This document shows, in pieces, positions 589 through 28,788 of a stretch of 31,288 nucleotides of DNA. The position numbers and the translations under genes are program-made. The notes under the pieces were generated by a model, which made no database searches, was not told where the DNA came from, and saw only the letters and a list, made by a program, of their open reading frames with translations. Position 1 is the stretch's first letter. The number at the start of each line of letters is the position of its first letter. Source of the DNA: a virus; the IMG/VR virus record IMGVR_UViG_3300044714_000019, positions 1-31,288 of that record. One strand, written 5' to 3'.

Positions 589-1012
589 CGATTTCAAGAG
601 AGATAGTGTGGCGCTCCTCCCAAGGCATTTTGAGGAACTATCTTTACACAAGGACAAAGTTGGTTTTGCAATGGATTTTGATATGTACCATCGGGCGGAA
701 AAAAATCGGATGCTCTACATCCTCACGGCGCGAGTTGACGGTCAAATGGTGGGTTACATTATCTCCCTTGTGGCCAAGAATCACGGCCACAATAGAGATG
801 CCGGTCCCTATTCGACCACGGATATGTTTTGGGTAGCCCCAGAATGCCGAAATGGCACTGGAGCAAAGATGCTGATGGAAAATGAGCGAAGATTGAAGGC
901 TCTAGGAGTCAAGAGAGCGGCTATCTCCAGTAAATTGAAAGATTTGCACCTGGAATTATTCACAAGGCTTGGCTGGCAGGCGACGGACATGGTATTTCAT
1001 AAATTCCTATGA
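557..1012 (+). CDS. GNAT-family acyltransferase
   Basis: This 151-residue protein has a GNAT fold signature. A mid-protein beta strand (GYIISLVAKNHG) is followed by MFWVAPECRNGTGAKML, which corresponds to beta4, the pyrophosphate-binding loop and alpha3, and then by a C-terminal LFTRLGWQATDMVFHKFL typical of GNAT ends. The cofactor loop reads RNGTGA, one residue shorter than the usual R-x-x-G-x-G, so acyl-donor preference may be altered. The start ATG 557 has AGGAG nine bases upstream and lies within the acyl carrier gene (32-base overlap). The stop overlaps the next ATG as ATGA (1009). GNAT enzymes usually use acyl-CoA, but some (LuxI-like) use acyl-ACP. The adjacent ACP makes the second possible here. 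The target is unknown; virion proteins encoded next door are candidates by context. Confidence 0.8.
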   Translation: MPLTFQRECVDDFKRDSVALLPRHFEELSLHKDKVGFAMDFDMYHRAEKNRMLYILTARVDGQMVGYIISLVAKNHGHNRDAGPYSTTDMFWVAPECRNGTGAKMLMENERRLKALGVKRAAISSKLKDLHLELFTRLGWQATDMVFHKFL

Positions 1013-1821
1013 GCATTCTTGGCGTACTCGGGGTTGTCGGGGCGGGAATTGGGGCAGCTGGAGCTATCGGCGCATCTTCGCAGCAGGCCGGAGCCGCAGA
1101 AAGTGCAGCGCAACTCCAATACAATCTTGGAGAGCAGCAACTCCAGCAGAACCAAAGCCAGTTCAATACCACGCAAAAGAACATTGCGCCCTGGCTGCAA
1201 GCTGGAACGCAAGGAATAGGCACTCTGGCTGGACTTTTAGGCACTCCCGGCCAAGGGCTTTTGACTCCCTGGACGCAGCAATTCCAGGCTCCTACCGCTG
1301 CCGAGGCCCAAGCTACACCGGGATACCAGTTCACGCAAGGCGCTGGACAAGGAGCAATTCAAAACTCAGCGGCCGCAGGCGGAGGACTACTCTCTACCGG
1401 CACTCAGAAGACTCTCGATCAATATTCGCAAGGGTTGGCAGATACGACCTACCAGCAGACCTATAACAACGCTTTGACGCAGTACCAGCAGGCTTACAAC
1501 GTCTTCCAGGGCAACCAGACAAATGAGTTTAACAGGTTAGCCGCACTCTCTGGAGTAGGGCAGCAATCGGCAACGCAACTTGGGCAGTTGAGCAACCAGT
1601 CTTCGCAGATTGGAGCGCAAATCGCTGGCAATACAGGCGCGCAAGTCGGCAATTCGCTGATAAATATGGGCGCGGCGCAGGCTTCGGGGTATGCTGGCGT
1701 GGCGAATGCCTTGAATGGCGGGATTTCGAGCATCAGTCAGTACGCATTGCTCCAGTCACTTCTAAACCAGCCGAATCCCGCTGGAGCGACAGGCGGCATG
1801 GGATTGGAGCCAGGGAGCTAG
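1009..1821 (+). CDS. DNA-ejection (injection) protein, P22 gp7-like
   Basis: This 270-residue protein opens with a glycine/alanine-rich hydrophobic segment (about 1-25), followed by a long Gln/Ala-rich helical region. It carries the pattern seen in podovirus DNA-transfer proteins: a WLQAG motif near residue 63, then TPGYQFTQG near 103, then GGGLLSTGTQKTLDQYSQGL near 122-141, then regularly spaced Tyr/Gln pairs. In P22-like phages such proteins are packaged in the virion and leave with the DNA to help build a channel across the envelope. The start overlaps the GNAT stop as ATGA, and two more ejection-type proteins follow. Family assignment comes from this recognisable pattern and gene order; the exact P22 counterpart is inferred. 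Confidence 0.75.
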   Translation: MSILGVLGVVGAGIGAAGAIGASSQQAGAAESAAQLQYNLGEQQLQQNQSQFNTTQKNIAPWLQAGTQGIGTLAGLLGTPGQGLLTPWTQQFQAPTAAEAQATPGYQFTQGAGQGAIQNSAAAGGGLLSTGTQKTLDQYSQGLADTTYQQTYNNALTQYQQAYNVFQGNQTNEFNRLAALSGVGQQSATQLGQLSNQSSQIGAQIAGNTGAQVGNSLINMGAAQASGYAGVANALNGGISSISQYALLQSLLNQPNPAGATGGMGLEPGS

Positions 1822-1822
1822 C

Positions 1823-3280
1823 ATGGGCGGATTTCCAGCGTTAATGATTAAAGCGCCCGAGTCACCCTTGCAGCAGTACTCGCAGGCGCAGCAAGTGGTC
1901 GGGCAACAGCAGCAGATTCAATCCCAACAGCTTGAGAATCAGGTACGCACGCGCCAGCTACAGGACCAGGACGCCCTTACGCGAACAATGGCAAGCTGGG
2001 ATGGGAAGGATGTTGGGTCTCTGCCCATGCTAGTGGTCAAGAATGGCGGTTCCGGCCAAGCGGCCATGTCCATGACCCAAAGCGTTTTGGGCGTAAAGGA
2101 AAAAGCTGCCAACATCGCTAAAGATGATGCCTTAACGGGACAGGCTAGGGCAGATACACTTGCGAAGACCAATGACGCACTCCGAGGCCGAATTTTGAAC
2201 GTAGTAGGCATCCAAGACCCTGCCGCAAAGCAAGCTGCATGGGAATCTGAGGTTAGTAAAGAAGAACAGGCGGGAACGGTTCAACCAGGAAGCGTCTCAC
2301 ATACCTACCCTGGCGACGCGCAGGCCACGGCTTTGGCTAACCAGCATGCGCTTGGCAGCCAGTTAGTCAAGGAAGCGCAAGAAAAGCAGAAAATGGCGCT
2401 CGACGCATGGAAGCCCGTAGGCGGCCAGCTCGTAAACGCGGTGACGGGCGAGAAGATTGGCGGCTTGCAGAATGCCGACTCCCTGAATAGTGCTTTGACG
2501 ACCCGATGGCAAGTGCTTCACCCGGGCGAATCCCTGCCGGACTACTACAAGATGGGCGCAACCTCGACACCAACCGATTTTGATCGAGTGGACAAGCTGC
2601 TGGAGGCGACGGAGAAAGGCGCGGCCACGAAGGCCCAGCAAGAAACAATCAATGCCATGCGCCAGCAGACCTTTGAGCTAAACCGGGATAAGGCAGACAT
2701 GAATCCCGTGGTAGGGACGACAAAAGACGGTCGTTCCGTGCTCGTTCCGATGAGCCAAGCGCAACAGATGGGCGTGCAGAATCCCATGAAGGCCGATGCG
2801 GATATGGTGAACAAGGCTTTGGCCGCGAGGCACTGGCTCAATCTGGCCAATAAGCAAGGTGACGCAAAGGGCGACCCGGCAGATATGGGCATCATGCAAC
2901 TGGTGGACAAACTCGACGCAGAAGACAAGCTAGGCCCTATTGCCTCGCGCTGGAATGAATTTATGACGGGCAAGGTTGGGGCAGGCGACCCGGAAGTAGC
3001 GGCTTTGCGAGCCAAGATGGGACTGTCCTCGACGCTGCTCATGCAAGCGCACGTTGGCTCTCGTGGCTCATCCCAGATGCTGGAGCACTTTGAAGACCTT
3101 GCGAACCAAAAAAAGCTGGACGGACCAACGCTCAAAGCGGCGCTCGGTGCAGAGGTCAATTATGTTACCGACAAGGCCATGGACCCTTCGCCACCAAGCT
3201 ATACGAGGCCGACGCCCCCAACGAAACAGGGAACCGCGCCAACGAAAAAAGTAGATAACGACCCGCTGGGGATTCGATGA
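1823..3280 (+). CDS. Putative second ejection/internal virion protein
   Basis: This 485-residue protein has a strongly Gln-rich N-terminus (about residues 15-50, likely a coiled coil) and a mainly helical, charged body. The tail is Pro/Thr/Lys-rich (about residues 450-480). There is no signal peptide and no clear membrane segment. The start lies two bases after the preceding TAG, with GGGAG upstream. The stop overlaps the next ATG as ATGA. Position between a gp7-like protein and a glycine-zipper protein matches the 7-20-16 block of P22, so an ejection or internal head protein is the best guess. No catalytic motif is visible. Confidence 0.6.
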   Translation: MGGFPALMIKAPESPLQQYSQAQQVVGQQQQIQSQQLENQVRTRQLQDQDALTRTMASWDGKDVGSLPMLVVKNGGSGQAAMSMTQSVLGVKEKAANIAKDDALTGQARADTLAKTNDALRGRILNVVGIQDPAAKQAAWESEVSKEEQAGTVQPGSVSHTYPGDAQATALANQHALGSQLVKEAQEKQKMALDAWKPVGGQLVNAVTGEKIGGLQNADSLNSALTTRWQVLHPGESLPDYYKMGATSTPTDFDRVDKLLEATEKGAATKAQQETINAMRQQTFELNRDKADMNPVVGTTKDGRSVLVPMSQAQQMGVQNPMKADADMVNKALAARHWLNLANKQGDAKGDPADMGIMQLVDKLDAEDKLGPIASRWNEFMTGKVGAGDPEVAALRAKMGLSSTLLMQAHVGSRGSSQMLEHFEDLANQKKLDGPTLKAALGAEVNYVTDKAMDPSPPSYTRPTPPTKQGTAPTKKVDNDPLGIR

Positions 3281-4356
3281 GCAACACGCAACAAACTCTC
3301 GCGCAGATGGTTCGGGCAAAGTATCCCGGCGCCTATAGCGATATGGATGATGTGACGCTCGAAAAGAATGTCCTGGCAAAGCACCCTGAGTATTCGGATT
3401 TGCCGCGCACAAAAGCCCAATCCGATATGCAGCACACTTTGCTGAACATGACGGCTGCGATGTCCGGTCAGCCGATGCAGACGCCCGCAGAACAAGCTGA
3501 ATTTGAGCAGGGAAAGAAGGCTGGTGCAACATCGGCGGCAGAAACTGTCGGCGGAACGTTGGGAGCCGAATCGTTTCCAGCTATGCGCGGTTTAGTTGGG
3601 GCACTGGCCCGCATATTTGCCACTGGCGGCGGGGCTGCGGCGGGCAATGCAGCCGGGCAACTGGGCACGACTGGAACAATCGACCCAGCACAGGTTGGAA
3701 CCGCCGGAGCGACGTGGAGCGGATTTGCCGCTGGCGGAGAGACTTTAGGTGCGCTTAGCGAAGCCAGAACAGCTCTCGGAAGCATGCTTTATGGGCCTGA
3801 TGGGAAACTCTCTTCCTTTGGTAAGGCGCTCGTTCATCCTACACAGTTGCCGGAACAGATTCTCAGAGCAACCATTCCCCCGCCAGAACCAACAGTCGCA
3901 AAGGCTGTGCCGATTCGGACTTCGCCCAACTTCAATGCTCAGGAATACAATGCTGGTCGGGCATCCATGAATCCGCCTGAACCTGCCGCGCCAGCTCCAC
4001 CCAGTCCATTTGCGGGGGCGACCTCGACGGCTACTCCAGTCGGCAATGCAAAACTTCCTGTGACTGGAGATATTCCCAAAGGCTCATCCACGCCATTTGG
4101 CGAGCCGACAAACATTCAGTATGTGGACAAGTTCGGCAAGCCAGCGACGGGCAAGATTGTAGAGCCAGGTTCGACGCCGCCCGATGTGAAAGTCACGTAT
4201 CAATCTGTTCCGAAAGCGCAACTTTACGGTAAAGTGATGAGCGGAGATATGAATGCCATCAACGAATGGATGAGGCGCGGCCTTGAACTGCCGGACAATG
4301 TGAAGTTTTTGGTTGAGGATGCTGGCGCAAAGCCCTGGAGAAACTACGACAAATGA
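3277..4356 (+). CDS. Putative third ejection protein with glycine-rich membrane-type segment
   Basis: This 359-residue protein starts with a short helical module containing VRAKYPGAYSDMDDVTLEKN followed by AKHPEYSDL. I recognise that module from the N-termini of large internal or ejected phage proteins. Residues about 85-160 are rich in Gly/Ala and hydrophobic residues (GGGAAAGNAAGQLG), like a membrane-inserting glycine zipper. The C-terminal half is Pro-rich and low complexity. The start overlaps the previous stop and the end overlaps the next start, both as ATGA. It is likely the third member of the ejection set, by domain pattern and gene order; biochemical function is not shown by the sequence. 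Confidence 0.6.
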   Translation: MSNTQQTLAQMVRAKYPGAYSDMDDVTLEKNVLAKHPEYSDLPRTKAQSDMQHTLLNMTAAMSGQPMQTPAEQAEFEQGKKAGATSAAETVGGTLGAESFPAMRGLVGALARIFATGGGAAAGNAAGQLGTTGTIDPAQVGTAGATWSGFAAGGETLGALSEARTALGSMLYGPDGKLSSFGKALVHPTQLPEQILRATIPPPEPTVAKAVPIRTSPNFNAQEYNAGRASMNPPEPAAPAPPSPFAGATSTATPVGNAKLPVTGDIPKGSSTPFGEPTNIQYVDKFGKPATGKIVEPGSTPPDVKVTYQSVPKAQLYGKVMSGDMNAINEWMRRGLELPDNVKFLVEDAGAKPWRNYDK

Positions 4357-5855
4357 GCCAGAGAACTGCTCCAACCCACAAGAGAGCGTACAGCACGATG
4401 GTCAGTGCCATGATACTGATGGCGATAGCTACCATGCTGCCTAGCATAGCACAGGCGCAAACCAGTGTCGCCCTTGCCCCGGTCCCTGCGCAGCAGTTTT
4501 TTTCTCAAGCCGGGCAGCCATTAGCGTCTGGGTGTATTTGGACGTACATATCTGGTACATCTACTCCGCTCGCAACCTACACCTCGTATACGGGCGTGAC
4601 GCAGAATACCAACCCCATCATCTTGGATGGCGGCGGCTTCGCGCAAATCTGGCTGTCAAACAGCACGTATCGCTTTGTGATTTACGCCTCGGACGGCCTG
4701 AACGACAACTGCGCTTCGGGAGCCTTGCAGCGCACAGTGGACGGCATTTCAGCATATACAATACTCAACCAGGCACAAAACATCTTCCTGGCAGGGGCCT
4801 CCAGCGATCCCGCTGGCACGGCTGGCGAACTCTACTACAACACGACGCTTGGCTGCTTCCGCGGCTTCTCGACGTTCTGGGACTGCTTCGTAACGCTGAC
4901 AGGACCGCAGACTCTCACCAACAAGACGCTTCCCTCTGCGACTCTATCAACTCCGACGATTACTGGAGCCGTTAGCGGTGCGGCGCTCATCCCGTCTAGT
5001 GACATCGTTTCTTCCTATCCGACAAACACGAACCTTCCCGGTGTTAGCAATCTGGTTAAACTGGTAACAGTTGGAGGCGTAAGCCAGGCAACATTTACGG
5101 CCCTTACAGATACGAGCGGAGTCATCGGCATTTGCATAGCGAATTGCAGCACTTCGACCGCGCAGATTCAAGAAACGGGGACGACTACCTGCCAGTTCGA
5201 TGGAGCAACCACGGCAGGCGATTATATTCAGATTTCTACTTCGCTTCTCGGCGTCTGTCACGATGCCGGAGCATCTTACCCATCAACGGGGCAGGTCTTA
5301 GGCCGCGTACTGTCAACGAATGGCGGTCAAGGAACCTATCCGGTCAATCTGTTTCCTCCTGAGATTCGCGCTGGAACCATCGGTGCGCAGACCGGCTGCA
5401 CCAACTTCACGCCGGCAACCGTAGCGAATAACAATACTCAACAGAATCTTTTGTCTTGCTCCATCGCGGCAAACGCTCTCTTGCAAGGCAGCTTGCTCAG
5501 CGTGGACATAACCGGACTTTCGAGCACGGCTTCCGCTCAGTCCATCACCATCGGCATGAGCCTTGGAGCGGGAACGCCATGCACGACGACCGTGAGCACG
5601 GGGGTAGCGAACAATCAGGTATTCAACGTCATTGGCAAGTTTGCTGTATTGACCACGGGAGCGACTGGAACCGCCAACTGGAGCTGTGAGGGATTCTCTT
5701 CCAATGGAGCGGCGGGTGGGCCGGGAATTATCGGCACACCGACCATTGCCGTGAACACGACGATTAGCAACGTTCTTCAAATCACCGTACAGATGAGCGT
5801 CGCCAATGCTGGAAATTCCACTACCGGACAGCTTTTGAAGGCGGTCATTTACTGA
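4353..5855 (+). CDS. Tail-fibre-like adhesin with an N-terminal Sec signal peptide
   Basis: This is a 500-residue protein. Residues 1-36 form a convincing export signal: a basic n-region (HKR), a hydrophobic core MVSAMILMAIATML, and an SIAQAQ cleavage region with A-Q-A before the cut. Immediately after comes a module very common at the start of phage tail fibres and spikes: PAQQFFSQAGQPLASGCIWT, then TPLATYT, TNPIILD, and AQIWLSN...YRFVIY. The remainder is Ser/Thr/Gly-rich with beta character (LTNKTL repeat-like region near residue 190) and Cys pairs. Phage tail fibres normally fold in the cytoplasm, so the export signal is unexpected. It sits directly after the ejection genes, where P22 has its tailspike region. 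A run of seven T at 4497-4503 lies at codons 49-51. Confidence 0.72.
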   Translation: MSQRTAPTHKRAYSTMVSAMILMAIATMLPSIAQAQTSVALAPVPAQQFFSQAGQPLASGCIWTYISGTSTPLATYTSYTGVTQNTNPIILDGGGFAQIWLSNSTYRFVIYASDGLNDNCASGALQRTVDGISAYTILNQAQNIFLAGASSDPAGTAGELYYNTTLGCFRGFSTFWDCFVTLTGPQTLTNKTLPSATLSTPTITGAVSGAALIPSSDIVSSYPTNTNLPGVSNLVKLVTVGGVSQATFTALTDTSGVIGICIANCSTSTAQIQETGTTTCQFDGATTAGDYIQISTSLLGVCHDAGASYPSTGQVLGRVLSTNGGQGTYPVNLFPPEIRAGTIGAQTGCTNFTPATVANNNTQQNLLSCSIAANALLQGSLLSVDITGLSSTASAQSITIGMSLGAGTPCTTTVSTGVANNQVFNVIGKFAVLTTGATGTANWSCEGFSSNGAAGGPGIIGTPTIAVNTTISNVLQITVQMSVANAGNSTTGQLLKAVIY

Positions 5856-5864
5856 GGAGGCTTT

Positions 5865-6125
5865 ATGGCATATCTAAAGATCACGACAAGCGCAACGCTG
5901 TTTCTCAAAGACGGCCCCAGCTATATCCGCAACTTTTCCTGCCCGAACGCAGGCACAGGCTGGACGATGACGCTTAATGACATCGGGCAGAACGGCGTCG
6001 TGACGCAAGTCACTACATTTCCCATCTCCGTGGGAGTAGCGCTCAACACGCCTATGTTCTTTCCTCACGGACTTCAGATCGTAACGGCAGGCACACCGGG
6101 AGAGCTCGATGTTGACTATATCTAA
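5865..6125 (+). CDS. Small beta-rich virion-type protein, unknown
   Basis: This 86-residue protein has no export signal. It has a very strong ribosome binding site (GAGGAGG, six bases before the ATG), the best in this block, which suggests high expression. The sequence alternates hydrophobic and polar residues (TTFPISVGVALNTPMFFPHG) as in small jelly-roll or beta-sandwich structural subunits. The end overlaps the start of the next gene by 17 bases. A small tail or fibre accessory subunit is plausible; the family is not recognised. Confidence 0.65.
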   Translation: MAYLKITTSATLFLKDGPSYIRNFSCPNAGTGWTMTLNDIGQNGVVTQVTTFPISVGVALNTPMFFPHGLQIVTAGTPGELDVDYI

Positions 6126-7851
6126 GACATTTTTGCTGACACTGCTTCTGGCTGGCACGGTTTCGGCTCAGATCGTGACGGGCAGCTCCTCCTCCGGCTC
6201 GGGCATCACGCAGGGGTTCGTAATAGACGCCACTGTAGCTCCTTATAACGTCACATCTGGAAACACAGTCAGCGATGCCGCCATCACTAGCGGACAAGCG
6301 AATTTCACCTGCCCGAACAATGACTGTAATTTTACGGCGGTACAGAACGGTTGGATTTGTTTCGCCACAAATCTAACTACAGACGAATCGGCGGGCACGT
6401 CCGTAGTGATTCTCCCGCAGGGAACCCTCACAGTCACAGGTGCCCAAGCTGCTTCCTGTTCAGGCGGCAACGCCACGCAATCAGCCAACCCCGCTACGCT
6501 CATGTGGGGGCCGGACGTAACAACGGGAGCAAACGCAGCTTGGGCGGCAGCAGAAGCGAAATGCACGACAGTTATGTATCCTGGCGGATATCTGTTCGTT
6601 CAATCCGCCATTGCCAATACCTCGAATGATTCCTGTATTGTCTCAAAGAATTATGCGACCTACGGGATCACCGGCTCTGGCCCACAGCAAGCGCAGTTCG
6701 TGCCAACGCCAAATTTCTCTTCTTCATCCTGCACTGGGGGGTCGGCTAGTAACGGCTGCTTCTTCGGCGCTGATGATGTGAATATCTCTAATGTCGGCAT
6801 CTGGGGTGGAGGAAACTCCGCTATCGGTTCAGGCTTCAACGGCAAAGCAGCATTCGTGATGATGCCGTCCATTGCGGAAACAGGAAGCAACCAAATCGTG
6901 CAAAGCGTCTTGCTCGCCAGTTGGGGCTCAAATACGACCGGGTTCATCGGCATCGAGATCGGTGCTTTAAGCAACCCCGTACTACTGGCGGTGCACAACG
7001 ATGGTGTTGGCTACATCGGCTGCGAAATAAATTCAAGCGTAAATTACACGATAGCTACGTTCTATAACGTGTACTGCGCGGTAAATGCGCAGTATAGCAT
7101 CTATATGGCCTCCGCAAATCAAATCATCAGTTACGGTGGATTCTACGGCTACACTACGCTGACATCCGGCGGCAACACTGCCCTTGAAATGGCGGCAGGC
7201 GCTTATTTCTATTCCTACGGGGACCGCTTCATCTATACGTCTGGAACGGGAAATTCATCCGGCTCAAGCGTATGCACTTCCGCTTGCGGAGCTGGATTCC
7301 TTTACGCCGATGGGAGCGAATTTTCCAACTCGATAGGAAGCGCCTACGGACTCACGCTCCAGGGCGGAATGACAGCCCACATCAGGGATTCGATTCTAAC
7401 CGAGTCCGGCTCCAGCGGCACGGCTCTTTACGTCTGTGCAACCTGCAAAGTGTATGATGAAGGCGGGAACACGATTACGGCAAGCTCAGGGACGGCTGTT
7501 AATCTACTTTCTGGTGGGCAATATGTTCCTGCGCCAAATGCTACTACGACATTTACCGGGACGGCCACGACCGTCGTTCCGGTGCCTACCGGCTCCGGTG
7601 CTTGCGCAACAATTACAACAGTAAGCGGCAATGGCAATGCAGGGGTACTGACCTGCACGGGGACGACGGGTTCCAGCACAATCGTTTTGACGCCGCTATT
7701 TACCGCGCCTCATGGCTTTTCTTGTAACGGGCAGGACCATACAACGGTGGTGGATATTCTCACGCAAACCGCTGTTTCAACAACGACTTGCACTCTTTCA
7801 GGGACGGTGGCCGCAAATGACGTTATCAGTTATACCGCGACTCCTTATTAG
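6109..7851 (+). CDS. Secreted beta-helix, tailspike-like protein
   Basis: This 580-residue protein starts with a clean signal peptide (SKTFLLTLLLAGTVSA, cut before QIVTG). After a Ser/Gly spacer and a Cys-containing beta domain (about 60-130), residues 138-170 read like the start of a pectin-lyase-type parallel beta-helix: GPDVTTGANAAWAAAEAKCT followed by MYPGGYLFVQSAI. Repeated short strands with Asn/Gly turns continue to about residue 470 (NISNVGIWGG, IISYGGFYGYTTL). A C-terminal domain with paired cysteines follows. Such helices occur in phage tailspikes and polysaccharide lyases. No catalytic residues can be assigned by eye. The presence of an export signal and many cysteines suggests folding outside the cytoplasm with disulfides, by inference. 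Confidence 0.68.
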   Translation: MLTISKTFLLTLLLAGTVSAQIVTGSSSSGSGITQGFVIDATVAPYNVTSGNTVSDAAITSGQANFTCPNNDCNFTAVQNGWICFATNLTTDESAGTSVVILPQGTLTVTGAQAASCSGGNATQSANPATLMWGPDVTTGANAAWAAAEAKCTTVMYPGGYLFVQSAIANTSNDSCIVSKNYATYGITGSGPQQAQFVPTPNFSSSSCTGGSASNGCFFGADDVNISNVGIWGGGNSAIGSGFNGKAAFVMMPSIAETGSNQIVQSVLLASWGSNTTGFIGIEIGALSNPVLLAVHNDGVGYIGCEINSSVNYTIATFYNVYCAVNAQYSIYMASANQIISYGGFYGYTTLTSGGNTALEMAAGAYFYSYGDRFIYTSGTGNSSGSSVCTSACGAGFLYADGSEFSNSIGSAYGLTLQGGMTAHIRDSILTESGSSGTALYVCATCKVYDEGGNTITASSGTAVNLLSGGQYVPAPNATTTFTGTATTVVPVPTGSGACATITTVSGNGNAGVLTCTGTTGSSTIVLTPLFTAPHGFSCNGQDHTTVVDILTQTAVSTTTCTLSGTVAANDVISYTATPY

Positions 7852-8149
7852 CTTTGCGTTCGCATCCGTGCTCTGTGGGCAGGACTTGAACGGCCACGTC
7901 CCTATCCACTACAAAGGGGTGATGACTATCCCGAAGCATGGCTCCCGCAGGCTCACAATTAAGTACGATGACCTCTATCCAGGCGTCCGTATGCGCGGAG
8001 GTTGTTCGTGGAAGGATGAGACACAGCCAGGAAGTTATATGCCTATCGTCGAGAGCGATAAAAACCATCAAGTCATCGAAGCTCCGCGCGGACACATCAT
8101 TGCGTGGGAATGTTGGTGGAACGTGCCGCTTCCGAAAGGAGAAAAATGA
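7817..8149 (+). CDS. Small exported protein, unknown
   Basis: This 110-residue protein reads from ATG 7817. An upstream in-frame ATG at 7712 would add 35 residues that overlap the previous gene and look like a shadow, so I prefer 7817, where the protein begins with a signal-type segment (IPRLLISFAFASVLCGQ). The cysteine at residue 20 could be a lipid attachment site, but the preceding residues (S-V-L) are not a good lipobox. The mature part is short, Trp/Cys-containing and beta-like (GGCSWKDETQPGSYMPI, IIAWECWWNVPLPKGEK). It overlaps the previous gene by 35 bases and ends as ATGA with the next. Confidence 0.6.
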   Translation: MTLSVIPRLLISFAFASVLCGQDLNGHVPIHYKGVMTIPKHGSRRLTIKYDDLYPGVRMRGGCSWKDETQPGSYMPIVESDKNHQVIEAPRGHIIAWECWWNVPLPKGEK

Positions 8150-8604
8150 AACCACTAATCCTTCTCGCTCTCTGGGCAGGGCCTTTAGCAGCTTCTCTTT
8201 CAGCTACCCCTTGGTACAAAGACAAGAAAGTCTGGGTCGTCATCGGCTCGTCTATCGCGTCCTCAGCGGTAGCGACGAAAGAAGCGCACGACTGTCGCCT
8301 GCGCGAAGGAATTTCTTTCTGCTCCGGGGGTTACGGACCCTTCGCTGCACGTGAAGCAGTTCGGATGGGCGGAACAATCGGCCTCGACGCGCTTGGCTTG
8401 TGGGGCGGTCATCTAGGCATCAAAGAATGGCCCGCTCTGCCCCTCGGCAATACGATCTACAACGCCTACGACGCATACGACCAAACAATCAAAGATTGTC
8501 CAGCGGGGCAGTGGCCTGTCTACGGCACAAAATACAACTGCACGGGAGGATGGAAAGGCTATGAGAAACCTAATCTTAGCGGCATTGCTTTCGTTCGCCA
8601 CTAG
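8146..8604 (+). CDS. Exported protein with a conserved-looking Cys pattern, unknown
   Basis: This 152-residue protein is chosen from ATG 8146, which has AAAGGAG upstream and overlaps the previous stop as ATGA. Residues 1-20 form a signal peptide (MKPLILLALWAGPLAASLSA). A second hydrophobic stretch (WVVIGSSIASSAVAT, about 30-44) may be a membrane anchor. The remainder has four cysteines (DCRLREGISFC, DCPAGQW, NCTGGW) and Gly-rich turns. The end of the gene contains the start of the next (44-base overlap). It may be a periplasmic or membrane-bound protein; the family is not recognised. Confidence 0.62.
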   Translation: MKPLILLALWAGPLAASLSATPWYKDKKVWVVIGSSIASSAVATKEAHDCRLREGISFCSGGYGPFAAREAVRMGGTIGLDALGLWGGHLGIKEWPALPLGNTIYNAYDAYDQTIKDCPAGQWPVYGTKYNCTGGWKGYEKPNLSGIAFVRH

Positions 8605-9346
8605 CGCGCTCGCGCAGACCCCCGTCGCGATCCAGAACTCGAACTTTCAATCTCCCGTCACGTTCACAAACATCGACCCGTCCGGCGCTGCTGCTGGCAG
8701 CCAGTGGGAATCTGGGACTATTCCTAGTTGGATTGTAGGTCCAGGTATCGCAGGTATCCAACAACTTGTCTCAGTTTGTGGCGTGAATATCCCTCAAGGC
8801 GCATTTTCTAACGGGGCGACCATAACGCAGGATGTTGGACCGCAACAGGCAGGAATGTACGTGCTTACCGTGGGCATCTGTAATCGTTCTGATATTTCTG
8901 GAGCTACCTACACACTCAGTCTTAGCGGCTGCAACGAATCGGCGCTGAACTCAACCATTCCACCGGGAACAATCCAAAACGTCACGCTGTCTTGCCCGAT
9001 CTCGAATCCCTCCGGCGACAACATCATTGGCCTCGGCTGCTCGGGCGGTCAGTGCGATTTTTCCAGTGTAGCGCTTACGTTCACGCCGGCAGGTCCGTAC
9101 GTTTTCGTCCTTCCCACTTGCGGCGCGAGCACCTGCACCTTCACCTTTCCAATCGCGAACGCTTCGTCGCTTCCCGCTTGCAGCTCAGCAGATGGTACGT
9201 GCTCTCTCTCTATCCAGGTCTGCGATACGAGCGTAACGCCAGCTAACTGTCTAACGCTCTCGACTACCGGCGCGATCAACATCGTCAAGAACAGTTCCAC
9301 GAACGGCCAGACGGTTACTCCGCTCGTGACGGCGACAAGCCCATGA
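8561..9346 (+). CDS. Secreted Cys-rich beta-sandwich protein, possible carbohydrate-binding
   Basis: This 261-residue protein has a canonical signal peptide (MRNLILAALLSFATSALA, cut before QTPVA). The mature part begins with NSNFQSPVTF and then GTIPSWI. This resembles the first strand of secreted galactose-binding-like domains that start with a [DN]-x-x-F-E-x-P motif and a Pro-x-Trp. At least ten cysteines occur in pairs (CGVNIP, CNRSD, SGCNES, LSCPIS, LGCSGGQC, CGASTC), favouring disulfide-bonded extracellular folding. The ending is ATGA with the next gene. Function as an exported adhesin or surface protein is an inference from the signal, composition and its place beside two fibre-like proteins. 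Confidence 0.62.
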   Translation: MRNLILAALLSFATSALAQTPVAIQNSNFQSPVTFTNIDPSGAAAGSQWESGTIPSWIVGPGIAGIQQLVSVCGVNIPQGAFSNGATITQDVGPQQAGMYVLTVGICNRSDISGATYTLSLSGCNESALNSTIPPGTIQNVTLSCPISNPSGDNIIGLGCSGGQCDFSSVALTFTPAGPYVFVLPTCGASTCTFTFPIANASSLPACSSADGTCSLSIQVCDTSVTPANCLTLSTTGAINIVKNSSTNGQTVTPLVTATSP

Positions 9347-9564
9347 TAGCCCTCTGCCTGCTTTTACACATTCACTGCCACAAGGAATCAGGTATGTTCA
9401 CGATTCGGGAGCACGGAACGGCTACAGTATATTTCGAGAAGGAGTTTAAAAAAGTTCCGGCCTGTTCAGTTACGAACGCTATTCCGGGCAACCGAAGCGC
9501 GAAGATGTTTCAAATTCACGTTATAGGCAAAGCAGGTACTCTCGTAACGTGGCAGTGCAAATGA
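9343..9564 (+). CDS. Small exported beta protein, unknown
   Basis: This 73-residue protein starts MIALCLLLHIHCHKESG, a short hydrophobic leader with cysteines that may be a signal or lipoprotein leader. It then gives a single beta-rich unit (TATVYFEKEFKKVPACSVTN...IHVIGKAGTLVTWQC). The pattern of F-x-K-x-F-x-x-x-P followed by a C-terminal W-x-C resembles the single beta-sandwich tips found at the ends of phage fibres, by my reading only. It is ATGA-coupled at both ends. Confidence 0.52.
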   Translation: MIALCLLLHIHCHKESGMFTIREHGTATVYFEKEFKKVPACSVTNAIPGNRSAKMFQIHVIGKAGTLVTWQCK

Positions 9565-9713
9565 AGCCAAAACTCACAGCACTAGAAATCAGGCTTCTCC
9601 ATGCCTTGCAGATCTACACCCGCGAGGCGAGTGTAGAGACGGCGCTTGACCGCATCAACAAGGACAGGAACAAGCGCATAAGGGAGCGGAACAGGAAGCC
9701 CAAGCATGATTGA
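9561..9713 (+). CDS. 50-residue basic helical protein, unknown
   Basis: ATG 9561 overlaps the previous stop (TGCAAATGA) and the frame runs to TGA at 9711-9713, overlapping the next ATG (9706) by eight bases. The product (MKPKLTALEIRLLHALQIYT...) is helical with a very basic tail rich in Arg/Lys (DRNKRIRERNRKPK). It is included because of the start/stop coupling on both sides. Function unknown. Confidence 0.5.
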   Translation: MKPKLTALEIRLLHALQIYTREASVETALDRINKDRNKRIRERNRKPKHD

Positions 9714-10029
9714 GCCAAGCGTTGCATGGCTGGGACTCTTTACGACCATCGTGGTGACCGTGCCGCCGACGATCAATGCTCTGGTAAACTGGAGCATTGC
9801 CAAGAAAGCGGCTGTCGAGCAGCACAAGATTTTTGTAATTACGGAGAAGGTCCATACCCTCGTGAACAGCCAGTACGGGATAGCCCTGGCACTGATTGTC
9901 GAGAAGGCTGCCCGAATTTATGAGATAAGCAGAAGCGCGGCCGACAAAGCAGACCTCGACAACGCAAAGATGAAACTAGCAGAGCATGAAGCGAAGCAGA
10001 AAGTGGTGGATGACGGAGAAGCAGCGTAG
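9706..10029 (+). CDS. Small membrane protein with charged helical tail (lysis-region type)
   Basis: This 107-residue protein has one N-terminal membrane segment (about residues 6-29, AWLGLFTTIVVTVPPTINAL) and a long charged helix in the C-terminal half (DKADLDNAKMKLAEHEAKQK). It starts inside the end of the 50-residue gene before it. The arrangement beside another small membrane plus coiled-coil protein is what holin or inner-spanin genes look like in phages. No specific family is recognised, so the lysis role is contextual. Confidence 0.6.
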   Translation: MIEPSVAWLGLFTTIVVTVPPTINALVNWSIAKKAAVEQHKIFVITEKVHTLVNSQYGIALALIVEKAARIYEISRSAADKADLDNAKMKLAEHEAKQKVVDDGEAA

Positions 10030-10046
10030 CGGAGAGGCCCAGCCCA

Positions 10047-10271
10047 ATGAACTGGCCGGCCATAGAATTGGCAGTCGGTTTGATGATTATCGGTGCAGCC
10101 GTCAACTGGATTGTGATGGTATTGTTTTTCCGCTGGAAGCAGCGGGAAGCCGTGCCGGACGAAATTCACAAGGAAGTTGAATGCTTGCGAAACGATGTAA
10201 TTGGGTTGCGCGTGGAAATGGCGAGAATCAAAGGGCAGTTGAACTTCAAGACGTGGCGAAAGGAGAATTGA
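10047..10271 (+). CDS. Small membrane/coiled-coil protein, possible holin or inner spanin
   Basis: This 74-residue protein has a transmembrane helix at about 5-28 (LAVGLMIIGAAVNWIVMVLF). A basic stop-transfer follows (RWKQR), then an amphipathic coiled-coil helix (about 37-66, EIHKEVECLRNDVIGLRVEM). This single-pass, N-in layout is typical of inner spanins and some holins. A candidate outer-spanin lipoprotein is not obvious next to it. It ends one base before the next start. Confidence 0.58.
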   Translation: MNWPAIELAVGLMIIGAAVNWIVMVLFFRWKQREAVPDEIHKEVECLRNDVIGLRVEMARIKGQLNFKTWRKEN

Positions 10272-11728: not shown

Positions 11729-12007
11729 ATGAACGCGCAAATCAAGAACTTCCTGACTATTGCCCTCAAGAACGCTGTAAATGCTCTCCTGACCAGCTCC
11801 GCTCTGATGGCGCTCAACTGGGGCGCATTCAACTTCACATCCAAGGCTGGCTGGTGGAATCTTGCCAAAGTTTGCGCCAGCGTCATTGGCGCTCGCGAAG
11901 CAACTGTCTGGGGGCCTATTTTGCTCAAGTGGAGCGTAACTTCCAGCAATCCTGAAGCCGTCCGCACGCCGTCTGGGGGACTCGATGTACCAGCACCTAA
12001 GCCGTAG
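11729..12007 (+). CDS. Small phage protein, possible holin-like
   Basis: This 92-residue protein has moderately hydrophobic helices (FLTIALKNAVNALLTSSALM about 8-27, and ASVIGAREATVWGPILLKWS about 50-69) without a strong transmembrane score by eye. It follows the DUF5675-like gene and overlaps the Tat-signal gene by 23 bases. The closing Pro-rich tail (RTPSGGLDVPAPKP) is likely flexible. Holin-like or structural function cannot be told apart. Confidence 0.55.
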   Translation: MNAQIKNFLTIALKNAVNALLTSSALMALNWGAFNFTSKAGWWNLAKVCASVIGAREATVWGPILLKWSVTSSNPEAVRTPSGGLDVPAPKP

Positions 12008-12623
12008 GCTATTCATTCAACGCGCACCACTAACTGCCGCGGGCATGGTCATTGCCGTGGATGTAGCACTACTCAGTGAAGGCTGCACGGTTGGCGATGC
12101 GGTCATCAACATCCTCAACCTGATGGAACCAGCCGTAGCGGGCGTCTTGCCGATCGTGGCGCTCGCAGACCCTTCCTTGCAGGTGCCGGTTCAGGCTGTC
12201 ATTACTACATTTGATTCCGGTGTGACGCTGGTTACGAACCTCTACCATCAGTATGAAGCTACTGTGGCGGCCGGCAGTCCCAATCCAACTTTCTTGCAGG
12301 AGTTCAAGTCCGCGCTCTCTACGCTCAACACAGACACGATACAGATTTTGACGGTCGCCCATGTCACCGACCCGGCGCATGCTACGCTGATTCAGGACAT
12401 TGTTAGCGCTTTGACGCAGGAGATTGCGACGATCATCAGCATGTTCACGCCAGTGGCAAGCGCGGCGATGGCCCATACGACTGTCATTACCATTCCTTCT
12501 GTAGCGCACGCCAAGGCAGAGCAGAAAGCATTCAAGGCGAGGCTCTATGCCATTTACAGCCGCCAGACCGGAGACGCGGCTCTGGATGCACAGACGGCAA
12601 AGACTGCCAAGCAGTTTAAGTGA
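11985..12623 (+). CDS. Tat-signal, possibly lipoprotein, phage protein of unknown function
   Basis: This 212-residue protein begins MYQHLSRRLFIQRA, a near-perfect twin-arginine motif (S-R-R-x-F-I). A moderately hydrophobic core follows (TAAGMVIAVDVALL), then SEGCTVGD. The Cys could be a lipid site, but the preceding S-E-G is not a standard lipobox. The mature part is a long Ala/Thr/Val-rich helical protein (about 40-165) ending in a Lys/Ala-rich helix. GGGGG lies five bases before the start. The stop overlaps a tiny membrane gene. By family knowledge Tat exports folded proteins; why a phage protein would use it is not shown. Confidence 0.6.
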   Translation: MYQHLSRRLFIQRAPLTAAGMVIAVDVALLSEGCTVGDAVINILNLMEPAVAGVLPIVALADPSLQVPVQAVITTFDSGVTLVTNLYHQYEATVAAGSPNPTFLQEFKSALSTLNTDTIQILTVAHVTDPAHATLIQDIVSALTQEIATIISMFTPVASAAMAHTTVITIPSVAHAKAEQKAFKARLYAIYSRQTGDAALDAQTAKTAKQFK

Positions 12624-16698: not shown

Positions 16699-17063
16699 AG
16701 CTTCACGAACTCATCAAGAAAATCCTTCGCCTTGCCAGTCTTCACGTCTTGTGTGCTGAACCTGAGCATCCTTATCCCGCAAAGCGTGGCAATGTTGGAC
16801 TTTTCATTGTCAGCGCCCCATCCAGCGCCGTGCCGCCCCTTGAAATAGCCGTCTATCTCGATCCCTATACTGTATTCGGGCAGGTAGAAGTCAAGCAGCC
16901 ACTTCCTGTCCTGATGGAAACGATGCTGCTCCCAGTACTCTATCCCCAGCTCTTTCAGGTGAGTCGCCATGAGGATCTGCCCGACGTTAGGCTTGCCCTT
17001 CACCGCCCGACCCACCTTGAGCGCGGCATGGGCTTCGAATAGCCTCGCTTGCTTGTCTGCCAC
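16695..17063 (-). CDS. PD-(D/E)XK-type endonuclease (DUF559/Vsr-like)
   Basis: This 122-residue protein has the pattern of the DUF559/Vsr-like nuclease fold: HLKELGIEYWEQHRF, then WLLDFYLPEYSIGIEIDGYF (Asp58 and Glu69 as the expected metal ligands), followed by His78 and a final strand ATLCGIRMLRFSTQDV. These enzymes cut or nick DNA, and in phages may act in recombination intermediates or host DNA degradation. The end overlaps the HNH gene as ATGA, suggesting that the two nucleases are made together. Confidence 0.72.
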   Translation of the reverse strand: MADKQARLFEAHAALKVGRAVKGKPNVGQILMATHLKELGIEYWEQHRFHQDRKWLLDFYLPEYSIGIEIDGYFKGRHGAGWGADNEKSNIATLCGIRMLRFSTQDVKTGKAKDFLDEFVKL

Positions 17064-22870: not shown

Positions 22871-22919
22871 AACGCAGAAAAGCCTTGCGGATACTCAGAA
22901 ATAATGCCTAAATACCCTC

Positions 22920-23279
22920 ATGGGACGGCCTAAAGGCGCAAAGAACCAGGCAGATGAGGCCAGACGCTTTGTATTCCATGTGGAACGAGCACTCAAGGCC
23001 GGAGGGTATCAAGACGGACTCATCAATCTGGTGTGCCGCCAGCTCAAGAACGAAGACTCCTGCAATCCCATCCTGCTCAAACTGCTCGAATACAAGTATG
23101 GCCGGATCCGCACAGATGGCGATGGCGACAGACACCTGCATGTGGAGATGACCGTAGATGACGCCAAGCAGCTCATTAGAGGCTATTTTGGACGGGTTAC
23201 CAGCAGCGGAGACCTTGAAGTGGGCGAGAGCCATCCAGACCGAGCGCCGCAACAAGATTCAAAGCTATTACCCAGATAA
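22920..23279 (+). CDS. Candidate small terminase subunit
   Basis: This 119-residue protein starts MGRPKGAKNQADEARRF, the basic GRPKG-KN head common to phage small terminase proteins, followed by helices (VERALKAGGYQDGLINLVC) and ILLKLLEYKYGR, another feature of that family. Small terminases recognise the packaging site and stimulate the motor. It directly precedes the large terminase ATPase gene and overlaps it by 122 bases, so the true end of the conserved part is probably near residue 85. There is no clear Shine-Dalgarno. Confidence 0.6.
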   Translation: MGRPKGAKNQADEARRFVFHVERALKAGGYQDGLINLVCRQLKNEDSCNPILLKLLEYKYGRIRTDGDGDRHLHVEMTVDDAKQLIRGYFGRVTSSGDLEVGESHPDRAPQQDSKLLPR

Positions 23280-23880
23280 CGGGCCTTTACGCAGAGAGTT
23301 ATATCCCAAGCATTTAGAGTTCTTTAGCAAAGGATCAGAGCACAGAGAGCGTTGCTTCTTGGCAGCTAATCGCGTAGGCAAGACAGAAGGCGTGGGAGCA
23401 TACGAATGCACTTTGCACCTGACTGGCAGATACCCCAGTTGGTGGACAGGAAGACGATTTGAGACAGCAATTACGGCTTGGGCAGCCGGCGACACGAATC
23501 AGACGACCAAAGATGTGCTTCAGCGAGTCTTGCTAGGTCCAAAGATTGATGTAGGCACGGGAATGATACCGGGAGATGCCATCGTAAAAACCACGCCAAA
23601 GACCGGTGTACCAGAAGCCGTGGAAACCATTCATGTTAAGCACGTTAGCGGAGGGGTATCGGAGCTTACGCTCAAAACCTACGAGCAAGGCAGAATAAGT
23701 TTCCAAGGCACAAGCCGGCACATTGTCTGGCTAGATGAAGAGCCAGACATGGGGATTTACACAGAATGCCTGACGCGCACAATGACGACCAATGGCCTCG
23801 TAATTTGTACGTTCACGCCTTTGCTCGGCATGTCTGAGGTGGTCAGGTATTTTCTGGATATGAAAGCGATTGAATCGTGA
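23158..23880 (+). CDS. Large terminase, ATPase half (split gene)
   Basis: This 240-residue protein contains the complete motor ATPase of a P22-like large terminase. The N-terminal YYPDNGPLRRELYPKHLEFF is followed by Walker A AANRVGKTEG (69-78), adenine/catalytic strands, Walker B IVWLDEEP (189-196) and the coupling motif CTFTPLLG (217-224). It stops with TGA at 23878-23880 just after the motif region that normally continues into the nuclease. The nuclease is encoded by the next gene, whose GTG overlaps this stop (GTGA). Lengths of both pieces add up to one normal terminase. Confidence 0.85.
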   Translation: MTPSSSLEAILDGLPAAETLKWARAIQTERRNKIQSYYPDNGPLRRELYPKHLEFFSKGSEHRERCFLAANRVGKTEGVGAYECTLHLTGRYPSWWTGRRFETAITAWAAGDTNQTTKDVLQRVLLGPKIDVGTGMIPGDAIVKTTPKTGVPEAVETIHVKHVSGGVSELTLKTYEQGRISFQGTSRHIVWLDEEPDMGIYTECLTRTMTTNGLVICTFTPLLGMSEVVRYFLDMKAIES

Positions 23881-24599
23881 GTAAAGCTGTCATTCAAGCG
23901 GCTTGGGAGGATGTACCACACCTCACCGAGCAGGCCAAGAAGGAGCTTTATGACAGCTACCCGCCACACGTCCGAGACGCACGAACAAAAGGAATCCCGC
24001 AGCTTGGTTCAGGAGCTATCTACCCTGTACCCGAATCTGACGTTCTCATTGCCGATTTTGAGATCCCCGTGCATTACCCGCGAGTCTATGCTCTTGACGT
24101 GGGCTGGAATCGAACCGCATGCCTCTGGGCAGCCAGAGACAATGAAACAGGAGTAGTCTATCTCTACAGCGAGCATTATAAAGGCCAAGCCGAGCCGGTA
24201 ATCCATGCCCAGGGCATAAAGGCTCGAGGAGACTGGATTCCAGGTGTCATTGACCCGGCATCTCGAGGACGCAGTCAATTCGACGGCGAGAAGCTGATCG
24301 AGACCTATCGGCAGCTCGGCTTGATTCTGACTCCAAGCAAAAACGCCGTGGAAGCCGGAATCTACGAGACTTGGCAGCTCCTGGCTAACGGCAAGATGAA
24401 AGTCTTCAAGAGCCTAGTCAACTGGCTGATGGAGTTCAGAATCTACCAGCGCGACGAGAAGGGCAAGGTCGTAAAGTCCAACGATCACCTCATGGATTGC
24501 ATGCGGTACTTGACACTCACTGGATTAGGTATAATGTGTCTTAAGCCAGTCGGGAGTTCGCGGCCGCCGCGGCAGCCAAAAGGCTGGATGGGAGTCTAG
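23877..24599 (+). CDS. Large terminase, nuclease half (split gene)
   Basis: This gives 240 residues from GTG 23877. It begins SKAVIQAAWEDVPHL, the usual bridge after the ATPase, then GSGAIYPVPES. The RNase H-like nuclease follows: YALDVGWNR with Asp74, GVIDPASRGRSQFDGEKL with Asp126, and SNDHLMDCMRY with Asp203/Asp207 for metal binding. It cuts the concatemer during headful packaging. An in-frame stop lies only two codons before the GTG, so the reading frame opens just here; fusion to the ATPase would need a -1 shift inside a seven-base window, and no standard slippery heptamer is present. Confidence 0.85.
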   Translation: MSKAVIQAAWEDVPHLTEQAKKELYDSYPPHVRDARTKGIPQLGSGAIYPVPESDVLIADFEIPVHYPRVYALDVGWNRTACLWAARDNETGVVYLYSEHYKGQAEPVIHAQGIKARGDWIPGVIDPASRGRSQFDGEKLIETYRQLGLILTPSKNAVEAGIYETWQLLANGKMKVFKSLVNWLMEFRIYQRDEKGKVVKSNDHLMDCMRYLTLTGLGIMCLKPVGSSRPPRQPKGWMGV

Positions 24600-24830
24600 A
24601 TGCCTGCTAAATCCAAAGCACAACGCGAACTGATGGCCATTGCCGAGCATCACCCCAGCGAGGTACATGGCGCTAATCGCGGCGTTCTCAAGATGAGCCA
24701 CACGCAATTGCACGACTTCGCCGACACCAAGGGCCTGCACCTAAACCACGTCCATCAAGTAGTGCACCACAAGGATTCGATCCCAACGAACACCAAAGGC
24801 CCGCACGTGAAGGCAATAGCGCACAAATGA
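24600..24830 (+). CDS. DUF3008-like small protein
   Basis: This 76-residue protein begins MPAKSKAQRELMAIAEHHPS, matching the MPAKSKAQQ start of small proteins grouped as DUF3008 and common beside phage packaging genes. His-rich middle and end (HLNHVHQVVHHKD). The start follows the terminase stop directly; the stop overlaps the next ATG as ATGA. Function unknown. Confidence 0.65.
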   Translation: MPAKSKAQRELMAIAEHHPSEVHGANRGVLKMSHTQLHDFADTKGLHLNHVHQVVHHKDSIPTNTKGPHVKAIAHK

Positions 24831-25459
24831 TTTTATCTCCACACGCCGGAAGAACTCGTCTAGCAGATGGGACGAGCGCACGCGGAAGCGATACCGCCAG
24901 CCACCCTTCAGGCTGCTTACCTAAGCTGGCTCCCTCGGCTAGCCCAGAAGAGCACGGCGTAACGGGGCATCTGCAACTATTTGACGACAGAGTGCTTGTC
25001 AGGCGCATCGAAGAGCCAAGCGGCCTCGTGCTCACGGACGCGCCCAAGAGCATCAAAGGCGTTGTTGTAGCTGTCGGGCCGGGCAAGTGGGTGCCGGGAA
25101 CGTGGTGGCACGGATTGCACAGGGTAGAAGAGACTGGCTTTTGGGATATTGGCTGGTATTGGACGGATGGCTACCACGAGACACCTGAAGTCAAGCCGGG
25201 CATGATTGTGGCTTTCAATAGCCGCTGGAACGACTTAGCCCATGCCGAGAACAAAGGCACAGGAGCAGATGGCAAAGGCAAGCTCGAGCGGCCGCTCAGC
25301 TACAAGCTGGACAAGAACGTCCATCTGATCAGAGAGGCTGACATATTTGGAGTTTTGCCGAGCGAGCACGTCAGGATCGAGTATCTACGGACAGGCATGG
25401 AAGAGCTATTTGTGAATCGCTCGACAGCGCCGGAGGTCTTTCAAAGCAAATGCGGATAG
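24827..25459 (+). CDS. GroES-like co-chaperonin domain protein
   Basis: This 210-residue protein has a Cpn10/GroES core from about residue 48: HLQLFDDRVLVRRIEEPSGL, then VLTDAPKSIKGVVVAVGPGK, VKPGMIVAF near 122-130, and VHLIREADIFGVL near 165-177. The GLVLTD segment corresponds to the GroEL-contacting G-I-V-L in GroES, with a shortened mobile loop. Two insertions (about 88-120 and 135-162) and a 47-residue N-terminal extension double the usual size. Phage co-chaperonins (T4 gp31) remodel host GroEL for coat folding. Its place between terminase and portal, ATGA-coupled, suggests a head-assembly chaperone or a virion protein that has reused the fold. Confidence 0.68.
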   Translation: MILSPHAGRTRLADGTSARGSDTASHPSGCLPKLAPSASPEEHGVTGHLQLFDDRVLVRRIEEPSGLVLTDAPKSIKGVVVAVGPGKWVPGTWWHGLHRVEETGFWDIGWYWTDGYHETPEVKPGMIVAFNSRWNDLAHAENKGTGADGKGKLERPLSYKLDKNVHLIREADIFGVLPSEHVRIEYLRTGMEELFVNRSTAPEVFQSKCG

Positions 25460-25632
25460 TCATAGGCGAAGTGTCTGAAGACAATGGCACTTACAAGATG
25501 CAGCGTGCTATCCACGTAGAAATCAGCGATGCGGACTTCGAGCTGGAATCAGACGACTTTGTAGAGCGCTACCTGCGGCCAGCAATGGCTCAGCTGGTCG
25601 CCTGGCACGATGAAGAGGCTGTGAAGCACTGA
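25450..25632 (+). CDS. 60-residue acidic protein, unknown
   Basis: The start lies ten bases inside the GroES-like gene; the stop overlaps the portal start (TGATG). An acidic helix (ISDADFELESDDFVERYLRP) is notable. It could be a small assembly factor for the portal; no family is recognised. Confidence 0.55.
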   Translation: MRIVIGEVSEDNGTYKMQRAIHVEISDADFELESDDFVERYLRPAMAQLVAWHDEEAVKH

Positions 25633-27878: not shown

Positions 27879-28788
27879 AGAGCGCCAAGAGGTTGACGCC
27901 TACATCGAGAAGCGCAAAGAGGAGAAGAGTGCCCCTCCGCCCGAAGTTAAGGTTGAAACAACCACGCCGGAGCCACCTCCAGAGACTGCCGAAGCGGTTA
28001 AAGAGGCAGTTGAGGATGCCACAGACGACTACATTAGACGCAGAAACTATGAATCCAAGCAAAAGCGCAAGCCCCGCGGCGGTGTCCAAGCCAAAATAGA
28101 CGAACTGACCAAGAAAACAGCGGAGCTTGAGGCTAAAGTAGCCGAGCCTCCGAAAGTTGAGACGCCGACCGTAGTGCCACCTGTAGTGGAAGCTCCAAAA
28201 CCGGCTGAAACCGCCAAAGAAGCACCCAAAATGGCGGATTATACCGACATTGACAAGTACAACACCGATTTAGCGCTGTGGGCAGCCGCGCAAACCAAGG
28301 TTGTACCACCAACGGAAGCACCAAAAACGACCCCAGCCGAGCCTCCCAAGCCTGACCCACAAGCAGCACTAAGGAAAGAAGAGTTTGACAAGTTCCTCGA
28401 AGCTGGCAAGAAGCTGATTGTACGCTTCCCGGACTTCAACGAGACACTCAACGCAGCACATATCAGAGGCCTAACGATGTCAGAGCAGGCCAGAATTGCG
28501 ATTACGAAGCTCGCAGCGCCCGAAGTAGCCTACTGGCTGGCAAAGCCCGAGAATGACTTGGCAGCCAGAAACTTTATGAAGCTGGACGACTTCCAGCAGG
28601 TCATCGAAGTAGGCAAGATAGCTGAGCGACTGACGGTCAGGCCATCGGATTTCGTCTCGAACGCTCCGCCACCGGGGCCAAGGCTCAATGGAACCACTCG
28701 ATCTGACGTGCCGCTGAACGAAATCACGGATACAGACGAGTACATCCGGCAACGCAGGCAGGCAAAAAGAGCAGGCATTCGCAGATAG
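27832..28788 (+). CDS. Scaffolding-like protein
   Basis: This 318-residue protein has a very high Pro/Glu/Lys content in its first half (KEEKSAPPPEVKVETTTPEP), then coiled-coil (DELTKKTAELEAKVAEPP), then a conserved-looking helical domain (EEFDKFLEAGKKLIVRFPDF, LTMSEQARIAITKLAAPEVA). The end is a short basic helix (DTDEYIRQRRQAKRAG), as needed to bind coat protein. GAGGA lies five bases before ATG 27832. Position between portal and coat and its composition support a scaffolding role; sequence family is not recognised with certainty. Confidence 0.7.
   Translation: MPEPTTAVVEVPPEVKERQEVDAYIEKRKEEKSAPPPEVKVETTTPEPPPETAEAVKEAVEDATDDYIRRRNYESKQKRKPRGGVQAKIDELTKKTAELEAKVAEPPKVETPTVVPPVVEAPKPAETAKEAPKMADYTDIDKYNTDLALWAAAQTKVVPPTEAPKTTPAEPPKPDPQAALRKEEFDKFLEAGKKLIVRFPDFNETLNAAHIRGLTMSEQARIAITKLAAPEVAYWLAKPENDLAARNFMKLDDFQQVIEVGKIAERLTVRPSDFVSNAPPPGPRLNGTTRSDVPLNEITDTDEYIRQRRQAKRAGIRR

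Follow-up and report, generated by a model that had tools for sequence, protein, structure and literature searches.

Can a tailed phage complete its virions with spikes that have passed through the inner membrane of the host? This question is raised by a gene cluster at positions 4353 to 9564 of IMG/VR virus record IMGVR_UViG_3300044714_000019. The window analyzed here is the whole of this record, a linear metagenome contig of 31,288 bases with broken ends. Its genes include those for a portal, a scaffold and a coat of the P22 type, along with a homologue of ejection proteins. Particle assembly in tailed phages is usually placed in the cytoplasm. All six open reading frames (ORFs) of the cluster, named here by their first positions (4353, 6109, 7817, 8146, 8561 and 9343), are present, with mostly overlapping stop/start junctions, and five of them (4353, 6109, 7817, 8146 and 8561), which we describe as consecutive late genes, begin with a predicted signal peptide (SP). 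The cluster most probably encodes the receptor-binding proteins of the phage. With a probability only slightly above one half (about 0.55), we propose that it is a podophage receptor-binding apparatus that is exported, oxidized and docked onto particles at lysis. The phage itself, a soil podophage with a P22-type coat, most likely infects Acidobacteriota, a host assignment that follows the host distribution of the SP-bearing form of its spike.

The head-binding domain of 4353 and its signal peptide

ORF 4353 (4353 to 5855, plus strand, as are all cluster genes and the three genes upstream) encodes a tailspike or fiber of 500 residues, composed of a Sec SP (residues 1-35), a head-binding domain, a shaft modeled with low confidence and, at the C-terminus, a jelly-roll region. 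An alignment of the product with 71 homologues matched the head-binding domain of the tailspikes 7EEQ (Pam1; E 4.5e-9) and 9VYG (Pan3; E 7e-10), and likewise 9VYH (Pan3 tail spike); the three best fold matches of the AlphaFold model are 9VYG and 7EEQ chains. The domain, encoded at 4458 to 4770, is of the Pam1/Pan3 tailspike type and corresponds to phrog_26190. No Pfam head-binding family matches it, and a single-sequence scan of viral contigs with 4353 returned no relatives. The C-terminal half was modeled at moderate confidence, and the predicted jelly-roll region gave weak matches to TNF-like lectins. The SP is encoded at 4353 to 4457 (MSQRTAPTHKRAYSTMVSAMILMAIATMLPSIAQA, then cleavage before Q), and the domain reaches the functional N-terminus of 4353 solely after SP removal. 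Two cysteines lie in the domain, C61 (codon 4533-4535) and C120 (codon 4710-4712), which are positions 26 and 85 in the numbering of the mature window protein. Because the SP is present (score 5.5), as it is in 34 of 137 homologues of the domain, 4353 is a variant and not a plain podophage tailspike.

SPs were called with a home-made, rule-based tripartite scorer (positive n-region, uncharged h-region, small residues at -3 and -1) on greedy gene calls. Nine typed-in bacterial signal sequences, used as positive controls, scored 4.7-6.3, and of shuffled phage N-termini, 2.0% passed 4.3 and 0.4% passed 5.0. The sequence-only reading had proposed export leaders on six proteins. By this scorer, a tripartite SP with a signal peptidase I site, as for Sec export, is present in five of them, with scores of 5.5 for 4353 (AQA, then Q), 5.1 for 8561, 4.3 for 8146, and 4.2 each for 6109 and 7817, which are moderate by score alone; the scorer returned none for 9343, which was rejected as an exported protein. 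The call for 6109 is rescued by its homologues in L253, L254 and L255, all of which carry an SP (scores 6.2, 5.2 and 5.5). A score of at least 5 was reached by 66 of 533 coding-strand ORFs versus 5 of 215 on the opposite strand across the window and 18 related records, indicating an excess of SPs beyond chance.

An artefact of contig assembly, of mistaken start positions or of host genes misread is very improbable. A record that is linear, metagenomic and broken at its ends might invite such a suspicion, but many independent contigs share the layout, as do prophages of an isolate and of metagenome-assembled genomes (MAGs), and the start of 4353 overlaps the stop codon of the preceding gene (ATGA). 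The relatives already contradict this explanation.

One domain in two forms

The 103 of 137 homologues without an SP include named tailspikes from phages of Xanthomonas, Shewanella and Vibrio, and the domain of this form begins at the initiator Met in the majority of viral contigs and in the named Proteobacteria phages (the start in Xanthomonas phage PBR31 is MAVQIAPLPVMRFYDNNNNPLAGG). In the SP form, an SP of about 16-40 residues precedes the domain. In 25 of 27 SP forms, the predicted mature N-terminus lies 16-21 residues ahead of a GxP motif (mode 18), and in most no-SP forms Met lies 15-18 residues ahead of it (mode 16). As these distances are close, the SP resembles an added segment, and its cleavage would restore the ordinary N-terminus. 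Two cysteines in the domain were found in 25 of 34 SP forms versus 1 of 103 no-SP forms (Fisher p 8e-19, uncorrected for kinship), the single no-SP form being L189, which has a CxC. The cysteines occupy positions 26/85 (mature window numbering) in most cases, and otherwise 28/85, 26/83, 22/25 or 31/38; these alternative pairs suggest that the pairing was re-made more than once. Whole-protein cysteine counts of the fibers do not separate the forms, since no-SP fibers reach 15; only the in-domain count and parity do.

The same comparison bears on dual localization, in which part of the protein would remain in the cytoplasm for the virion, owing to a weak SP or an internal start, and the remainder would be exported. 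In 21 of 27 SP forms an in-frame ATG, GTG or TTG lies at or near the stretch from the cleavage site to the domain core, where cytoplasmic homologues start. However, no such codon occurs in the window, where 4353 offers no other in-frame start codon from the cleavage site up to the domain core, or in five other SP forms, and most of these codons are GTG for a conserved Val. The cysteine pairing inside the head-binding domain further suggests that the oxidized domain is the functional one, and dual localization is therefore considered improbable. In L012, a short frame at 12402-12447 (MSMPTATTQRKA) ends just before the start of the SP-form spike at 12447 and matches the beginning of the 4353 leader; a frame change in the leader of L012 is possible.

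Hosts were surveyed by a GTDB scan with one genome per species (84,980 species), which yielded 25 loci. All seven Acidobacteriota loci have the SP form, by rule in L172, L173, L178, L185 and L186, and by inspection in L174 (MKRILCLLVLALPMMA, then Q) and L190 (frame broken downstream). L173, a prophage of an Acidicapsa dinghuensis isolate, encodes homologues of portal, coat and ejection proteins next to its spike. Among the remaining 18 loci, none but L176 has a convincing SP. A search of 398 Acidicapsa-family genomes gave seven hits, all of the SP form (7/7), in a family-wide sampling that gave hits in few genomes (4 of 396 and 7 of 398).

Cysteine pattern, partner proteins and neighboring genes

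The mature parts of 4353, 6109, 7817, 8146 and 8561 contain 12, 18, 2, 4 and 12 cysteines, every count being even. The cluster lies directly downstream of three genes (1009 to 4356), at 1009-1821 (phrog_598, DNA ejection), 1823-3280 and 3277-4356, whose products are free of cysteine and are an internal control for cytoplasmic virion proteins. The paired-cysteine richness claimed for the cluster from its sequence is thus borne out by these counts. Among the coding-strand proteins of the window and the 18 related records, those with an SP score of at least 5 have 2.1 cysteines per 100 residues versus 0.95 in the rest, and even counts were found in 49 of 60 SP proteins versus 104 of 211 no-SP proteins. 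Counted per family, 38 of 48 are even (p 1e-4; SP score 5, 50% overlap); the parity is weaker with a single-linkage family collapse at SP score 4.3 (25 of 38, p 0.07). Ejection-protein homologues have 0 or 1 cysteine, and SP proteins of these phages reach 1,920 residues and 44 cysteines. Giant SP proteins (1,400-1,920 residues, 31-44 cysteines) adjoin spike genes at G758 27467-33229, G761 22892-28561 and G755 32172-36458, in the records behind L097, L086 and L038, respectively.

These data weigh on the idea that the SPs are unused, being hydrophobic leaders left by recombination with host secreted genes, with the proteins folding in the cytoplasm. In favor of this idea, the hosts make many secreted proteins that begin with leaders of this kind. 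The leaders, however, occur on many unrelated proteins within such clusters, the mature N-termini fall near the cytoplasmic start point, and the even counts and about twofold cysteine density set the SP proteins apart from ejection proteins, which have almost none. We regard unused SPs as quite unlikely, and as even less likely than dual localization.

The partners of 4353 begin with ORF 6109 (6109 to 7851, 580 residues), which has an SP (VSA, cleaved before Q, residues 1-20) and 18 cysteines. Its model, of moderate confidence, is a strand ladder with a mean predicted local distance difference test score (pLDDT) of 63, and its best fold matches are the beta-helix tailspikes Kp7 gp52, Pam1 and K2-2 (E about 1e-3 to 1e-4), together with phi297, so that the predicted structure resembles a beta-helix tailspike-like protein. 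A single-protein viral scan with 6109 found three relatives (L253-L255), and a single-sequence search of viral contigs with 8561 found no homologue. ORF 8561 (8561 to 9346, 261 residues) has a strong SP (ALA, cleaved before Q) and 12 cysteines; neither it nor 6109 has a head-binding domain. ORF 7817 (7817 to 8149, 110 residues) has a moderate SP and 2 cysteines in the mature part, and L012 has a similar small protein in the corresponding place. ORF 8146 (8146 to 8604, 152 residues) has an SP and 4 cysteines. By eye, small SP proteins like 8146 occur in fiber clusters of different phages (L253 8173-8592; G765 9649-10062), with an N-terminal half that contains W and bears His and Cys. ORF 9343 (9343 to 9564, 73 residues), without an acceptable SP, lies outside the exported set, and ORF 5865 (5865 to 6125, 86 residues) is without an SP inside the cluster. 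Homologues of 5865 are found elsewhere in L003, L004, L009 and L014, near head genes, and upstream of the coat gene in L003 and L004, which indicates that the gene has moved.

The partners are where export to a destination outside the virion has to be considered, namely receptor-masking exclusion, a free depolymerase or an adhesin on the cell surface or in the medium. Such export would account for the SPs and the cysteine pairing, for the depolymerase-like beta-helix fold predicted for 6109 and for the lack of a head-binding domain in 6109 and 8561. A secreted enzyme with a tailspike-like fold is also known in bacteria, as WceF of Pantoea stewartii is described as a secreted beta-helix (PMC7949094; 6TGF). 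On the other hand, each record of an SP-type phage contains exactly one copy of the 4353 domain, the SP one (21 of 21), so that a non-virion 4353 would leave the virion without an identifiable spike of this type, and the gene is placed like the virion tail spikes of relatives. Non-virion export is a less likely explanation, albeit the strongest of the alternatives. The preferred reading, in which the exported spikes belong to the virion, takes the same copy number to mean that spikes of this type, if carried, must come from the exported pool; the retained head-binding domain, the sole copy and the place beside the ejection genes together point to 4353 as a virion part. Export of an adhesin and beta-helix set by the infected cell, as the sequence-only reading proposed, is probable, given that in many phages the SP form goes together with cysteine pairing and with the host range. 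The purposes offered for it, receptor masking, free depolymerase or display, are unsupported as stated, as the head-binding domain of 4353 points to a virion part.

A second family shows a comparable pattern. The coat-adjacent protein of the window (30166 to 30846, plus strand) has neither an SP nor cysteines. Its family includes 14 distinct SP forms with 3-4 cysteines in the domain (SP forms occur in L226, L227, L086, L244, L021, L219, L060, L172 and L173), which belong to other Acidobacteriota phages, and no-SP forms with mostly 0 cysteines, at most 1 among full-length ones. PHROG matches of the family are to tail and tail-fiber proteins, over short stretches. The SP form is possibly an exported head-surface protein, and the window copy implies that export is a gene-by-gene trait in such phages.

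Elsewhere in the window, a GNAT acetyltransferase (557-1012) and an acyl-carrier-like ORF (346-588; PP-binding, below cut-off) precede the ejection genes; an acyl-carrier-like ORF of similar look stands ahead of the L004 ejection gene (16782-17033). A protein of 212 residues at 11985-12623 starts with MYQHLSRRLFIQRAPLTAAG, a leader of twin-arginine (Tat) type in appearance, followed by a Cys in LLSEGC; it has no Pfam or PHROG match.

Proposed pathway and comparison with known systems

In the proposed pathway, spikes and adhesins would be made late with Sec SPs, exported over the inner membrane and cleaved. Disulfides would form in the oxidizing periplasm, as the cysteine pairing suggests, and the spikes may trimerize there by analogy. 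Cleavage would expose the head-binding domain as the mature N-terminus, like that of cytoplasmic homologues. Spikeless, DNA-filled particles would be built in the cytoplasm, and at lysis the exported spikes would dock through the head-binding domain, with 6109 (beta-helix), 8561, 7817 and 8146 as putative partner spikes or accessory adhesins. Export with disulfide formation appears well supported by the sequence features; for the docking step, the best inference is that the spikes would join the virions during lysis or later. The broader proposal is that Acidobacteriota tailed phages finish virions outside the cytoplasm, with Sec-exported, disulfide-bonded tailspikes joining particles already assembled, either in the periplasm or once the cell has lysed, and in some relatives also with a Sec-exported coat-adjacent protein; we consider it evenly balanced.

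Several points weigh against this pathway. The SP calls come from a rule-based scorer, and we infer actual export, cleavage, disulfides and docking from sequence. An SP form, L176, occurs in a Betaproteobacteria MAG, on a 29-kb contig of which 16 kb is largely phage-like, and a phylum-level search found a distant no-SP homologue, L200, in an Acidobacteriota genome. No cysteine pair is present in 9 of 34 SP forms. SP and cysteine status are clustered on the domain tree, requiring 6 changes; a single origin of the SP form is compatible with this tree, and the Fisher p values overstate independence through shared ancestry. Independent contrasts on this tree gave one pair on supported branches, with low power. 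Three arguments are free of this one-ancestor dependence: the parity test, the second family and the alternative cysteine pairs.

If the only spikes that these phages have are exported and oxidized, assembly would end in another compartment and lysis would be an assembly step. Tailed phages would then have an assembly pathway split between compartments, with the host Sec and Dsb systems as phage host factors. For Acidobacteriota, a soil phylum that is abundant but seldom cultured with success, the pathway would provide receptor-binding proteins that are Cys-rich and secretable, and SP status could serve as a host marker for soil phage contigs. As the same domain occurs with and without an SP, the two forms are paired natural experiments and the proposal is directly testable. 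No tailed phage with exported fibers was found in a search limited to open-access literature, which is weak evidence of novelty.

The closest known counterparts are the cyanopodophage tailspikes of Pam1 and Pan3, whose N-terminal domain is homologous to that of 4353 by sequence and fold, in a podophage tail context. In their chains the matched stretch begins 3-13 residues from the N-terminus, whereas the window form adds a cleavable SP and the in-domain cysteine pair. WceF, a weak fold match to 6109, differs in being an enzyme of bacteria with no known role in a virion. The tail spikes of Xanthomonas phage PBR31, Shewanella phage X14 and Rhodoferax phage P26218 have the same N-terminal domain as 4353, and the coats of PBR31 and P26218 are 37-42% identical to the window coat. 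The PBR31 gene, annotated as a virion tail spike, stands beside internal proteins, like 4353 beside the ejection genes. Unlike 4353, these three spikes are without an SP and have the domain from Met. The comparison with P22 drawn from the sequence is fair for synteny, the P22 tailspike gene also following the ejection genes; no superinfection gene was identified, and no Pfam or PHROG superinfection-exclusion family was matched by any of the six cluster products. The P22 tailspike is cytoplasmic and has no SP, in contrast to the window spike; it is the last part added to the particle, and this addition works in vitro. In filamentous phages, virion proteins pass through Sec and fold in an oxidized state, and virions assemble at the membrane. 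The phage described here would likewise use Sec-exported virion proteins, with the difference that they would complete a tailed double-stranded DNA particle assembled inside the cell.

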